Source of the DNA: Candidatus Oleimmundimicrobium sp.
GTDB taxonomy: Bacteria > Actinomycetota > Aquicultoria > UBA3085 > Oleimmundimicrobiaceae
Assembly (NCBI RefSeq): GCF_030651595.1
Contig: NZ_JAUSCH010000123.1
Coordinates: 1-48,517 of the forward strand
Direction of reading: 5' to 3'
DNA: 48,517 bases
Shown here: positions 38,151-43,600 of the stretch, one piece after another
How positions within the stretch are numbered: position 1 is the first letter of the stretch
How the letters are laid out: every line of letters starts with the position of its first letter
Translations under genes and position numbers: made by a program
Notes under the pieces: generated by a model
What the model saw: the letters and a program-made list of their open reading frames with translations, nothing else
Database searches by the model: none
Told to the model about the DNA's origin: nothing

Positions 38151-39316
38151 ATGGCCAATAAAATGAAAGAAAAAAATAATCAAAAAGAGATTATTTCTCC
38201 TTTCGGCCTTATTTGGCAGTTAGCCCTCGTTATATTTATAGTTGAACTTCTAATTATGGTGATATTGTGGAAAGTACCGACTTTGTCTAAGTGCGTAGTT
38301 CCTTTATTGGATGCGGCTATGTTGATTGTTTTGGTAATTCCTGCATTTTACTATCTGGTTTATCGTCCCTTAACTCAAGAAATTATTGAGCGTAGGCGGA
38401 CAGAGAAAGAATTATTTAATGCTAAAACTAAATTGGAAGCTACTTTCCAATGCGCCGGCGGAGGAATAAGAGCCATTAATACGGATTATAAAATCATCGA
38501 CCAAAACAAGGAAATGGATGCTCTCTGTGGTGTTAAAGAGGCAGAAGCGGTAGGGAAAAAGTGCAGCGAAATATTTCAAGGTCCTTATTGTGGCACTGAT
38601 AAATGCACTTTTCGTCAAATTTTGGCCGGCGCAAAGCGGGTAGATGCTGAGGGGAAGAGAGTCACAAAGGGGGGAAAACCATATCGGTTAATCTCATCGC
38701 TACACCACTTAAAGACGAAGAAGGAAAAATTGTTGGTGTCGTTGAGAGTTTCTTGAATATTACCGAGCGTAAGAAAATCGAGAAAAAGGAAGAAGCGCTG
38801 ACAAAAAAACTAAAGCACCAGGCTCAAATAGATGGGCTAACAGGAGTTTATAATCGACAACACTTGGATAATGAACTTAAAATTGAGATTAAGAGGGCGA
38901 AAAGATATAATCGGCCTCTTTCACTAATAATGCTTGATATCGACCATTTTAAAGAAGTCAATGACAGATGTGGTCACCAAGTTGGGGATTGGACTTTAAA
39001 AAAAATAGCTAAAAGCATGAAGGATGTTGCTCGAGCAACTGACTTTGTTGGACGTTATGGTGGAGAAGAATTTATCGTGGTATGTACAGAAACAGCTATA
39101 GATAAAGCATTAAATCTTGCAAAACGTATGAGAAAAGAAATCAAAAAGTTGCGTGTGCTGGACAAAGATGGTTTGCTGTTGAAAATCACTGCAAGTTTTG
39201 GAGTTGCCCAGTATTCTGAGTCAGAAGATTTTGATAAATTGTTGGCAAATGTAGACGGTGCTCTTTACGAAGCAAAAAAAGAAGGAAGGGATAGAGTATA
39301 TTGCGCAAAAGATTAA
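38151..39316 (+). pseudogene. PAS-GGDEF diguanylate cyclase, frameshifted
   Basis: The first frame (38151-38756) encodes two membrane helices (about 18-40 and 46-68) and a PAS domain with Cys residues in CSEIFQGPYCGTDKC. Downstream of a run of six G (38669-38674) the PAS end continues in another frame: VNLIATPLKDEEGKIVGVVE, then ITERKK. That frame leads into a complete GGDEF domain to 39316 with RYGGEEF, the inhibitory-site RATD five residues before it, and MLDIDHFKEVND. One extra G would join both parts. So this is one c-di-GMP synthase gene with a one-base deletion: real mutation, switchable G-run, or sequence error. Only the GGDEF part might be made from ATT/ATG starts near 38753. Confidence 0.85.
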
Positions 39317-39384: not shown

Positions 39385-40713
39385 TTACAAAATTGGCAGA
39401 TATTTTTCTTTCTCGTAAGGAGTTACCTTGGTTTTGTATTCGTTCCATTCAATTTTTTTGTTTTTTATGAACCACTCAAACACTTGATTTCCAAGTGTTT
39501 TTTTCACTAAATCACTGTTTTCCATTATTTTTATTGCTGCATAAAGGTCTTCAGGCAATGATTCAATTCCAATTTTCTTTCTTTCTTTATCGGTCATTTC
39601 ATAAATGTTATTTGTTACTTGCTCGGACAACTCATATCCTTTTTCAATTCCTTCAAGGCCGGCAGCAAGCATTACTGAGAAGGCGAGGTAGGGGTTGCAG
39701 GCAGGGTCCGGGGAGCGTAATTCAATTCTTGTTGCCTTTTCTTTCCCTGGTTTATACATGGGGACCCTGACAAGCGCCGAGCGGTTTTGATGTGCCCAGC
39801 ATATATGAACCGGTGCCTCAAAACCGGACACTAATCGTTTATATGAGTTTACCCACTGATTGGTTACCGCGCATATCTCTTTTGAATGTTTAAGTAATCC
39901 TGCAATATAAGCTTTTGCAATCTCTGAAAGATGGTATTCGTCTTTGGGGTCAAAAAAAGCATTTATATCATTTTTGAAAAGGGACTGGTGAACGTGCATT
40001 CCGTTTCCGGCCTCTGTATGCATTGGTTTAGGCATGAAGGTTGCGTAAACATTGTGCAGCTGAGCTACTTCTTTTACAACTAGTCTATAAATCATGACAT
40101 TGTCGGCCATCTTTAAAGCTTCATCATATCTTAGGTCAATTTCATGCTGGCTGGGGCCTACCTCATGGTGACTATACTCTACTTGAACTCCAAACTTTTC
40201 AAGGGTAAGAACAGTATCTCTTCTTAAGTCAATTGCAATATCAAGGGGGGTCATGTCGAAATAAGTTCCTCTATCTAAAACCTCTGTTTCTGTTGAGTTT
40301 TTAAAATAGTAATATTCAAGCTCGGGTCCAACCTGAAAAGTATAGCCCTTATCCGCGGCTCTTTTAAGATTTCTTTTTAAAACATATCGAGGATCGCACT
40401 CATAATATGAGCCGTCCGGGTTTTTAATGTCGCAAAACATGGTCGCAACAAGCTGGCCGTTTGAACGCCAAGGAAGAATTTGAAGTGTAGACGGGTCAGG
40501 CATAGCTATCATGTCGCTTTCTTGAATTCTGGCAAATCCTTGAATCGAAGAACCATCAAAGCCCATTCCTTCAACCATTGCTTTGTCCAGTTCCTCAACG
40601 GTGATGGAAAAACTTTTCAAAAAGCCCAAAACATCTGTGAACCAAAGATATATAAATTTTATTTTTTTATCTTTAATTTTTTTTGTCACATCTTCTTTTA
40701 ATCTATTTGGCAT
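39385..40713 (-). CDS. glnA: Glutamine synthetase, type I
   Basis: A 442-residue GSI of the alpha kind. GFDGSSIQGFARIQESDM, the metal/substrate region EAGNGMHVHQSLF and RIELRSPDPACNPYLAFSVM are present. The adenylylation-site Tyr motif of GSI-beta is missing and the 25-residue insert is absent, so control should be by feedback and transcription. It makes glutamine from glutamate and ammonia. ATG 40713 on the minus strand follows GGAGGGAAT. It is divergent from the NrpR regulator gene and faces the GOGAT gene beyond it. Confidence 0.96.
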   Translation of the reverse strand: MPNRLKEDVTKKIKDKKIKFIYLWFTDVLGFLKSFSITVEELDKAMVEGMGFDGSSIQGFARIQESDMIAMPDPSTLQILPWRSNGQLVATMFCDIKNPDGSYYECDPRYVLKRNLKRAADKGYTFQVGPELEYYYFKNSTETEVLDRGTYFDMTPLDIAIDLRRDTVLTLEKFGVQVEYSHHEVGPSQHEIDLRYDEALKMADNVMIYRLVVKEVAQLHNVYATFMPKPMHTEAGNGMHVHQSLFKNDINAFFDPKDEYHLSEIAKAYIAGLLKHSKEICAVTNQWVNSYKRLVSGFEAPVHICWAHQNRSALVRVPMYKPGKEKATRIELRSPDPACNPYLAFSVMLAAGLEGIEKGYELSEQVTNNIYEMTDKERKKIGIESLPEDLYAAIKIMENSDLVKKTLGNQVFEWFIKNKKIEWNEYKTKVTPYEKEKYLPIL

Positions 40714-40746: not shown

Positions 40747-40775
40747 ATTCTAAACTACCTTAATTTTATGAGCAA
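40747..40775 (-). promoter_or_regulatory. Candidate glnA promoter
   Basis: On the minus strand TTGCTC (40770-40775) and TAGAAT (40747-40752) are 17 bases apart, about 35 bases before the glnA start. The -10 is one base from consensus; the -35 is weak, as expected for an activated or regulated promoter. Confidence 0.45.
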
Positions 40776-40798: not shown

Positions 40799-40844
40799 TT
40801 GACAATTTTAATGAGTTTTGATAGGTTATCGGTAACCGATTACC
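40799..40844 (+). promoter_or_regulatory. nrpR promoter and NrpR-type operator
   Basis: TTGACA at 40799-40804 is a perfect -35. The -10 region (about 40822-40827) overlaps a 21-base palindrome at 40824-40844. Its halves are GGTTATCGGT and ACCGATTACC around a central A, with mismatches only at two symmetric positions. Its ends, GGT...ACC, and size match the GGTA-N6-TACC style of operators bound by archaeal NrpR. Its place over the -10 box predicts autorepression of nrpR. Confidence 0.65.
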
Positions 40845-40856
40845 GTAGGGGATGAA

Positions 40857-41843
40857 ATGGACAAAGATGTTGAAAGAAAAATTATTAATATCTTGAAGAT
40901 TTTAAGTAAAGAAACGAATCCTCTTGGTGCAAGTATTATCTCCAGGCACCTTAAAGATTTTGGTATCGACCTTTCTGAACGGGCGGTTAGATATCATCTT
41001 AAATTGATGGATGAGAAGGGTCTCACTAAAGGGATTGGTAAAGAGGGGCGACTGATTACAGAAAAAGGAATAGAAGAACTAAACAATGCTTTGGTCTCAG
41101 ACAAAATTGGTTTGGTGAGTACTAAAATTGACACTCTTTCCTATCTTACATCTCTTGATTTTAAAAATAAGAAAGGGAAAGTTGTAATGAACGTTTCTAT
41201 ATTAGATAAAAGTGATTACAAAAAAGCTCTTAGAGTAATGAAAGATATTTTTAAAACTAAACTTTGTACAAGTGATTTTGTAATTGTAGCATATAAAAAC
41301 GAAAAATTAGGTGAGATTGAGATTCCTTCCGGTAAAGTTGGTTTTGGAACAATCTGTAGCATTACCTTAAACGGAGTTTTAATCAAAGCAGGCATCCCCG
41401 TTGATTCGAAATTTGGAGCTATTGTTCAAATGAAAGATTTTTGTCCTTATCGATTTACCGAGCTTATTACCTATGAAGGTTCTTCCCTGGACCCACTGGA
41501 GATTTTTATAAAGAGTCGAATGACTAGTGTGAGAGAAACGGCTTTGACGGGCAGCGGAAAAATATTAGCTGGTTTTCGAGAAGTTTCAGCTATTGCGCTT
41601 ACGGGTGTTAATAAAGTTGTGGAGGAGTTAAAAAAGATTGGGATTTATGGTGTTCTGGCGGTAGGCAGGCCAAGCCAGCCGGTTCTAGAAATGCCGGTTG
41701 GAAATAATAAAGTGGGAATAGTTGTCGCTGGAGGGTTAAACCCTATCGCTGCACTTGAGGAAGTTGGGATAGAAACCGGGAGCAGAGCAATGAGCACAAT
41801 GGTTGACTTCAGTGAACTTAGAAGTTTTTGGGACTTGTTTTAA
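40857..41843 (+). CDS. nrpR: NrpR-type nitrogen regulator (DUF128)
   Basis: A 328-residue protein. Residues 1-75 form a winged helix: ERKIINILKILSK, then SIISRHLKDFGIDLSERAVRYHLKLMDEKGL. The rest is one NrpR (DUF128) domain with GFGTICSITLNGVLIKAGIPV, SKFGAIVQM, ELITYEGSSLDPLEIFI and VGIVVAGGLNPIAALEE. In methanogens NrpR represses nitrogen genes and lets go when 2-oxoglutarate is high. It is rare in bacteria. Here it sits between glnA and a GOGAT-type gene, with a fitting palindrome before it. ATG 40857 follows AGGGGA. Confidence 0.88.
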   Translation: MDKDVERKIINILKILSKETNPLGASIISRHLKDFGIDLSERAVRYHLKLMDEKGLTKGIGKEGRLITEKGIEELNNALVSDKIGLVSTKIDTLSYLTSLDFKNKKGKVVMNVSILDKSDYKKALRVMKDIFKTKLCTSDFVIVAYKNEKLGEIEIPSGKVGFGTICSITLNGVLIKAGIPVDSKFGAIVQMKDFCPYRFTELITYEGSSLDPLEIFIKSRMTSVRETALTGSGKILAGFREVSAIALTGVNKVVEELKKIGIYGVLAVGRPSQPVLEMPVGNNKVGIVVAGGLNPIAALEEVGIETGSRAMSTMVDFSELRSFWDLF

Positions 41844-41947
41844 CTAATTTACTATGTAGCAGGAAGTAGGGGGTGAGGTTTTAGACAGTATATTTATAAA
41901 AATTATGTAAAATGATTTATTTAACTTTAATTAAAGGAGGATTTTAA

Positions 41948-43537
41948 ATGAATTTACGAAGACCGAATTCTAATGATGTAACTGAAACATCAAACCGTTC
42001 TAAAAACGTTGCGCCTAATTCGGGTTTATGTACCCGTTGTATTGATGGATGTAAAGGTAATTGTGAGGTTTTTAAATCATCTTTTCGCGGAAGAGAGGTT
42101 ATTTATCCGGGGCCTTTTGGTGAAATTACTGCTGGTGGTGATAAAGAGTACCCGATAGATTATTCCCATTTAAACATACAGGGTTATGCTTTGGGAGCTA
42201 AAGGCCTCCCTAAAGGGAAAGAAGGAAATCCCGACAATACACTTTTCACTTTAGTTAATACGGAAACTGAGTTTGGTTACAAGAATAAAGTAAAGATGCG
42301 CATACCTGTGTTTACCGGTGCCCTAGGTTCTACTGAGATTGCTCGAAAAAACTGGGGACATTTTGCCGTGGGGGCTGCCATAAGTGGCATTACTCTTGTT
42401 TGCGGTGAAAATGTATGTGGAATTGATCCTCAACTGGAAAGGGATAAAAACGGCAAGGTTACCAAATCGCCTGATATGATACGACGCGTTGAACAATATC
42501 GTCGTTATCATGAGGGTTATGGAGATGTTCTTGTTCAAATGAATGTGGAGGATACTCGACTTGGAGTGGCTGAATACGTAATCAATAAACTTGGGGTTGA
42601 AACTGTTGAGCTTAAGTGGGGACAAGGCGCAAAGTGTATCGGTGGTGAAATTAAAGTGAACAGTCTTGAACGAGCCCTTGAGCTGCAAAAAAGAGGATAC
42701 TTAATTACTCCAGATCCTTTGCTTTCTGAAAATCAAGCTGCGTTTAAAAATGGAGCGTTGCGTCAATTTGAAAGGCATTCTCGTCTTGGTTTTATTGATA
42801 AAAAAGGATTTATGAAAGAAGTTGAGAGGTTGCGTTCTCTTGGAGCAAAGCGGGTTACCTTAAAGACAGGTGCTTATACTATGCGTGAACTTGCTATGGC
42901 CATTAAGTGGGCTTCTCAAGCAAAAATTGATCTTTTAACTATTGATGGTGCTGGAGGTGGAACAGGAATGAGTCCTTGGGGAATGATGGAAGAGTGGGGT
43001 ATTCCAACATTCTATCTGCAGTCTATGGCTCATGAACTTTGCACCAAACTTGCTGAAAATGGAGAGTATGTACCGGATATCGCTATAGCCGGCGGGTTTA
43101 GCACCGAAGATCATATCTTTAAAGCGCTTGCTATGGGATCACCTCATGTTAAGGCCGTTTGTATGGGTCGGGCGTTGATGATTCCCGGTTTTGTTGGGAA
43201 GAATATAGACGCATGGCTCAAAGAAGAAGCCCTTCCGAAAACCATATCTAAATTTGGTACAACTAAAGAAGAAATCTTTGTTTGTTATGAAACATTAAAG
43301 AAGAAATATGGTAAAGAAGTTGACGAGATGCCTCTTGGAGCGATAGCGCTCTACACCTTCACAGATAAGTTAAAAGTTGGCTTGCAGCAATTGATGGCCG
43401 GAAGCCGCAACTTTAACATACCAAGTATTTCAAGAAGTGATCTTATGACTTTAACAGAAGACGCAGCCAAGGTTTCCGGTATTCCTTATGTGATGGACGC
43501 GTATCGGGAAGAAGCAATAAGAATCATTGAAGAATAA
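41948..43537 (+). CDS. FMN-binding glutamate synthase-domain protein (GOGAT-like)
   Basis: A 529-residue protein consisting of the synthase domain of GltB, without the glutaminase domain. The FMN barrel carries VKMRIPVFTGALGSTEIA, VELKWGQGAKCIGGE, LLTIDGAGGGTGMSPWGMM and IAIAGGFSTEDHIFKALAMG. The N-terminus has a Cys cluster, CTRCIDGCKGNC (Cys28, 31, 35, 39), which could hold a 4Fe-4S centre. It probably makes glutamate from 2-oxoglutarate using ammonia from a partner. ATG 41948 follows AAAGGAGG. With glnA and nrpR it forms a nitrogen assimilation module. Confidence 0.85.
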   Translation: MNLRRPNSNDVTETSNRSKNVAPNSGLCTRCIDGCKGNCEVFKSSFRGREVIYPGPFGEITAGGDKEYPIDYSHLNIQGYALGAKGLPKGKEGNPDNTLFTLVNTETEFGYKNKVKMRIPVFTGALGSTEIARKNWGHFAVGAAISGITLVCGENVCGIDPQLERDKNGKVTKSPDMIRRVEQYRRYHEGYGDVLVQMNVEDTRLGVAEYVINKLGVETVELKWGQGAKCIGGEIKVNSLERALELQKRGYLITPDPLLSENQAAFKNGALRQFERHSRLGFIDKKGFMKEVERLRSLGAKRVTLKTGAYTMRELAMAIKWASQAKIDLLTIDGAGGGTGMSPWGMMEEWGIPTFYLQSMAHELCTKLAENGEYVPDIAIAGGFSTEDHIFKALAMGSPHVKAVCMGRALMIPGFVGKNIDAWLKEEALPKTISKFGTTKEEIFVCYETLKKKYGKEVDEMPLGAIALYTFTDKLKVGLQQLMAGSRNFNIPSISRSDLMTLTEDAAKVSGIPYVMDAYREEAIRIIEE

Positions 43538-43564: not shown

Positions 43565-43600
43565 AAAGGGCTGTTAGCCGTTGGCTAACAGCCCTTTTTT
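43565..43600 (+). terminator. Intrinsic terminator of the GOGAT gene
   Basis: A perfect 15-base stem, AAAGGGCTGTTAGCC at 43565-43579 with its complement at 43583-43597, a GTT loop and a T-run. Very strong; also able to act on the minus strand. Confidence 0.95.

Follow-up and report, generated by a model that had tools for sequence, protein, structure and literature searches.

A conserved palindrome over the nrpR promoter points to probable local, autoregulated control of glutamate synthase-type genes by NrpR in Actinomycetota

We analyzed a window of 48,517 nucleotides (contig C123 of a 1.63-Mb, 95% complete genome from a Candidatus Oleimmundimicrobium relative; Actinomycetota, class Aquicultoria) that carries an archaeal-type nrpR gene with a 21-bp palindrome over its promoter. 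It is likely that this NrpR is a local, autoregulated repressor of nrpR and of glutamate synthase-type genes, probably released by 2-oxoglutarate, and not a global nitrogen regulator. Read from the sequences, this view draws on the identity of NrpR, the site and its overlap with the promoter, the conserved partnership with glutamate synthase and the near-absence of other sites. We infer that NrpR binds the site, that it represses by steric block and that 2-oxoglutarate is the releasing signal. As early as 2009, NrpR was said to occur in "certain Bacteria" (PMC2723118); in the literature searched, beyond whose reach most subscription papers lay, we found no bacterial NrpR operator or target, and both appear undescribed there.

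Results

The nrpR gene (40857-41843, plus strand) encodes a protein of 328 aa in which the domain matches and the structural model place a winged helix at residues 10-75 and one NRD domain at residues 84-322. The product matched PF01995 (NRD1_2) with 279 bits and PF08461 (HTH_12) with 80 bits, and only a single NRD domain was present. The sole solved relative found by sequence was MJ0159 (PDB 3nek), at 3e-27 and, with the family profile, at 8e-43. An AlphaFold2 model built from 22 homologues (pLDDT 87) aligned to this NrpR-domain structure of M. jannaschii with a TM-score of 0.87 by target length, an E-value of 5e-20 and 29% identity. The NRD domain was conserved, and the window gene was 91% identical to nrpR of Candidatus Oleimmundimicrobium americanum (Actinomycetota, class Aquicultoria). 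The window gene product is a true NrpR, and the archaeal-style NrpR that the first-pass annotation had reported in a bacterium is thus confirmed by the two domain matches and the fold.

The gene order at the locus is glnA, nrpR, gltB-like and an intrinsic terminator. A divergent ORF on the minus strand (39385-40713) encodes a type I glutamine synthetase, GlnA, as identified by domain search (TIGR00653). On the plus strand, nrpR is followed after 104 bp by the gltB-like gene (41948-43537), and a strong terminator of 15 pairs with 8 GC pairs and a T tail (43565-43597, plus strand) closes this unit; no terminator was found between the two genes. The placement of nrpR between glnA and a GOGAT-type gene, as described earlier, is therefore correct, the latter being a divergent family member with a partial PF01645 match. 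No RNA leader (riboswitch) was detected in the region, where the Rfam match was a tRNA only. Beyond glnA, at 38151-39316, two ORFs in different frames, one for PAS and one for GGDEF, share a few bases; they are probably a single PAS-GGDEF gene that a frameshift or a fault of the assembly has split.

The nrpR-gltB-like promoter consists of a -35 box TTGACA (40799-40804, plus strand) and a -10 box TAGGTT (40822-40827, plus strand) separated by 17 bp, and the same TTGACA-17-TAGGTT arrangement was found in the related loci L003, L004 and L025. The predicted NrpR operator, GGTTATCGGTAACCGATTACC (40824-40844), overlaps the -10 box and has 9 of 10 arm pairs matching around an odd central base. It can be read as two overlapping GGTW-N6-WACC dyads that share the central GGTAACC, and the inner dyad, GGTA-N6-TACC (40831-40844), has the form of the Methanosarcina mazei NrpRI operator (PMC3177094). 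Both the near-perfect palindrome over the -10 box and its likeness to methanogen operators had been pointed out before, and both observations held. The palindromy by itself is only moderately unusual, since shuffling the 143-bp spacer 5000 times reached the same level in 87 cases and the window holds 7 such palindromic 21-mers against 2.5 expected. We judged the palindrome to be real because it is conserved between species: its 21 bases are identical in the window, L003 and L004 while the rest of the spacer drifts. It occurs once in its own genome at up to three mismatches.

We then compared 36 Aquicultoria genomes, 16 with and 20 without NrpR. The exact 16-base core of the site was found in 12 genomes, all of them within the NrpR-bearing 16, and in none of the 20 that lack NrpR (P ~1e-6 before allowing for relatedness, a value that overstates independence because the genomes are related). 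A phylum-wide sample of 397 genomes contained 31 with NrpR, the new ones belonging to families f27, f58 and f43 outside Aquicultoria. A site was present at nrpR in 28 of the 29 testable NrpR-bearing Actinomycetota genomes, in at least two classes and usually once per genome. The degenerate 21-mer, allowing at most one mismatch, was found in 25 of 30 NrpR-bearing genomes, always at nrpR, with three other matches in all. As for the remaining five, G035, G027 and G168 carry variants at nrpR, the contig of G023 ends before the promoter, and G256, where nrpR lies near a GOGAT operon, has no recognisable operator. The 21-mer pattern had been written with both lineages already in view. We therefore also ran a cross-test, in which a matrix built from one lineage was applied to the other; here the nrpR site ranked first at 7 of 8 and at 14 of 14 loci. 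Across 27 sites, positions G1, G8, G9, T10, C13, C14, T18, C20 and C21 were invariant and the motif amounted to ~31 bits. The 21-bp palindrome is, on this sequence comparison, very probably the NrpR operator.

An earlier view of the true dyad as a 16/20-bp core, taken from Aquicultoria alone, was dropped because the second lineage, in which f27 nrpR spacers carry sites such as GGTAATAGGTTACCTATTACC, showed the full 21-mer with the same centre. As a genome scan, the looser 16-bp core CGGYAAHCGDTTRCCG was informative for exact matches only; with two or three mismatches, its counts in the window genome were below those of a reversed-pattern control. Five own-genome matches with two mismatches were rejected, four lying inside ORFs of at least 300 codons and the fifth inside a 99-codon ORF. 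The three extra matches in other genomes were taken as chance: G028:C16 lies among phage-like structural genes (an ORF reading), and G031:C5 and G304:C111 are single one-strand matches. A second perfect core was seen in G032 (L023:6041-6056) inside a TTGACA promoter downstream of the gltB-like gene. The start of the gene that follows it weakly matches FAD_binding_4 and the contig ends within that gene; this core may mark an additional target in that species.

Promoters at the nrpR loci varied in detail. L024 has TTGACA-17-TAGGAT at nrpR, and a clear TTGACA-TATAAT pair is missing from some f2 promoters. Compared with G029, both G028 (L020:6572-6970) and G027 (L022:106-954, with an N run) have extra sequence between the operator and nrpR, apparently inserted there. 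Several f27 loci (L110 and, at the same place, L111, L114 and L117-L121) have a second, weaker CGG-N10-CCG-like element immediately upstream of the nrpR start, at a distance of ~55-60 bases from the main site.

The gltB-like gene encodes a divergent FMN barrel protein of the glutamate synthase family (529 aa). PF01645 covers residues 286-412 only, and because of this partial match we regard it as a GOGAT-type but divergent member. It lacks a full Glu_synthase domain and a GXGXG subunit, and so differs from canonical glutamate synthases. Its role in glutamate synthesis is a prediction and its reaction is uncertain, since the protein's barrel shares only 26% identity with canonical GltB and neither a GXGXG subunit nor a canonical, full-length GltB was found in the window genome. 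Among the 15 Aquicultoria contigs with NrpR that we examined, including the window and counting G033 (L004) and G034 (L003) once each, 14 have this gene beside nrpR; the neighbour in G023 differs. The site covers the promoter of nrpR-gltB-like in Aquicultoria, and in several loci the -10 box overlaps it. In the spacer between the two genes, a near-perfect Shine-Dalgarno-like element (AGGGGGTGA / AAGGAGGTGA) was noted in the window (41866-41880) and in L003, L004, L020, L024, L025 and L033. In many species it stands ~70-100 bases upstream of the gltB-like start, and a mini-ORF a few codons long often comes after it; it is possibly a leader or a ribosome standby site.

Families f27 and f58 show a different arrangement, in which nrpR is divergent from an operon for an Fe-S protein, an FAD oxidoreductase, a class II amidotransferase (GATase), GltB and GXGXG; this operon is a complete split glutamate synthase. 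In f27 the promoter leading into the operon has its -10 box one or two bases from the site, and its TTGACA is present in all species but one. G021 has nrpR and the gltB-like gene on one side and the glutamate synthase operon on the other, with amt and PII genes further on, and it carries two operators, one against each of two promoters that face one another. From the arrangements in Aquicultoria, f27 and G021, the predicted target common to both lineages is the glutamate synthase-type genes together with nrpR itself.

For glnA, the likely promoter is TTGCTC-17-TAGAAT (40747-40775, minus strand; -10 box at 40747-40752, -35 box at 40770-40775), whose TAGAAT is conserved in L003 and L004. This promoter is ~48 bp from the predicted operator, which is centred ~94 bp upstream of the glnA start, and no second site was found at glnA, in agreement with the first-pass annotation. 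An operator at ~94 bp could still affect glnA, but judging from the promoter positions the divergent gene is probably not directly repressed. The suggested control of glnA through the shared spacer is doubtful, because the operator leaves the glnA promoter free and f2 has glnA apart from nrpR, without such a site. Direct repeats of the TGTAACAT type occur upstream of glnA in f2 (L030, L032, L033 and L034); they resemble the sites to which OmpR-type regulators (GlnR or PhoP, for example) bind, and glnA of this family may be under a different regulator.

No Amt, PII or nitrogenase-type genes were found in the window genome (95% complete). Its four family members (95-100% complete) likewise had no PII and no intact Amt, with Amt fragments in two, and 10 of the 16 NrpR-bearing Aquicultoria genomes (G000; families f1, f12, f13 and f9) lacked both PII and an intact Amt. 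Among the loci retrieved, the amt/PII loci of f2 and G021 and the nitrogenase-type loci of G002, G010 and G035 had no site of 13 bits or more, while true sites scored at least 22 bits. The expectation that the palindrome would precede amt, glnB and nif was thus not borne out: the genes are absent here, and relatives that have them lack the site there. The idea that NrpR replaces the usual bacterial systems is supported in part, by the absence of PII and intact Amt from the genome and the family; control of amt, glnB or nif is not supported.

Discussion

Binding of NrpR to the operator is predicted from two observations, the position of the site over the -10 box and its co-occurrence with nrpR. 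In the mechanism that we propose, NrpR would occupy the 21-bp double operator over the -10 and start region of the nrpR-gltB-like promoter and block RNA polymerase. By analogy with methanogens, where 2-oxoglutarate frees NrpR from its operator (PMC11957540, PMC4902934), a shortage of nitrogen would raise 2-oxoglutarate, which would bind the NRD domain and release NrpR. Both nrpR and the glutamate synthase-type gene would then be expressed, and the product of the latter would consume 2-oxoglutarate and reset the switch.

NrpR could instead be a global regulator that uses this site, together with weaker ones that escaped recognition, to act on glnA and further nitrogen genes, much as methanogen NrpR controls nif, glnK-amtB and glnA (PMC2723118). 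The divergence of glnA from the operator in f1, f13 and g24 (with a GXGXG gene between in the last) would fit such a role. We think it unlikely, since there is one strong site per genome, including the window genome, where operators before several nitrogen genes were not found, and since the glnA promoters are separate and the amt, PII and nif loci, where they exist at all, score far below true sites. It is likewise unlikely that the site serves autoregulation only, with transcription of the gltB-like gene starting mainly at a separate promoter within the 104-bp spacer. The length of that gap allows for it and sites at regulators' own promoters are common, but in f27 the site abuts a promoter that faces away from nrpR and serves a complete glutamate synthase operon, and the only strong terminator of the window unit stands after the gltB-like gene.

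That the palindrome belongs to another regulator which happens to control nrpR seems very improbable. Palindrome-binding proteins occur in every genome, and the binding of NrpR is a prediction from sequence; on the other hand, exact cores in the class are confined to NrpR-bearing genomes, the site stays at nrpR across at least two classes, and it matches a known NrpR operator (PMC3177094). We therefore favor a local NrpR that controls itself and its glutamate synthase-type neighbours.

The closest known systems are archaeal. NrpRI/NrpRII of M. mazei are NRD-domain repressors like the protein described here, and the M. mazei operator is contained exactly in the window site, but that system works on archaeal promoters, NrpRII contacts general transcription factors and the regulon is global. 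A further difference is the site on nrpR's own promoter, because nrpR expression and NrpR levels in methanogens are reported not to be nitrogen-regulated (PMC9765008). Methanococcus maripaludis NrpR belongs to the same domain family and has a palindromic operator near the promoter; its repression of nitrogen assimilation responds to 2-oxoglutarate, a response that we assume here by analogy. Its GGAA-N6-TTCC operator stands before nif, glnK-amtB, glnA and others (PMC2723118), whereas here a single double-length site is found at nrpR and the glutamate synthase-type gene.

Nitrogen control in bacteria is commonly exerted by PII/NtrC, GlnR or AmtR, which sense the nitrogen state for GS/GOGAT genes. 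The present genome differs in having no PII or Amt gene, and sensing and DNA binding are predicted to reside in one protein. In Bacillus subtilis, the LysR-type activator GltC is local and autoregulated and adjoins the gltAB genes that it controls. NrpR is similar in being a local regulator adjoining glutamate synthase genes, but GltC is an activator and unrelated in sequence.

Work on NrpR has dealt almost exclusively with methanogens. The footprint, which is conserved in two or more classes of bacteria, supplies both a candidate operator and a candidate target, making bacterial NrpR directly testable by gel shift. The data suggest that a regulator with a global role in methanogens acts locally here, tied to the enzyme class that uses up its presumed signal. 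We tentatively propose that NrpR in deep-branching Actinomycetota may be an ancient, one-target, self-repressing 2-oxoglutarate switch for glutamate synthesis, with a double operator in which two archaeal-type sites interleave. Where PII and an intact Amt are lacking, as in the Oleimmundimicrobium family, it might then be the sole dedicated nitrogen sensor recognised so far, controlling an undescribed kind of glutamate synthase.
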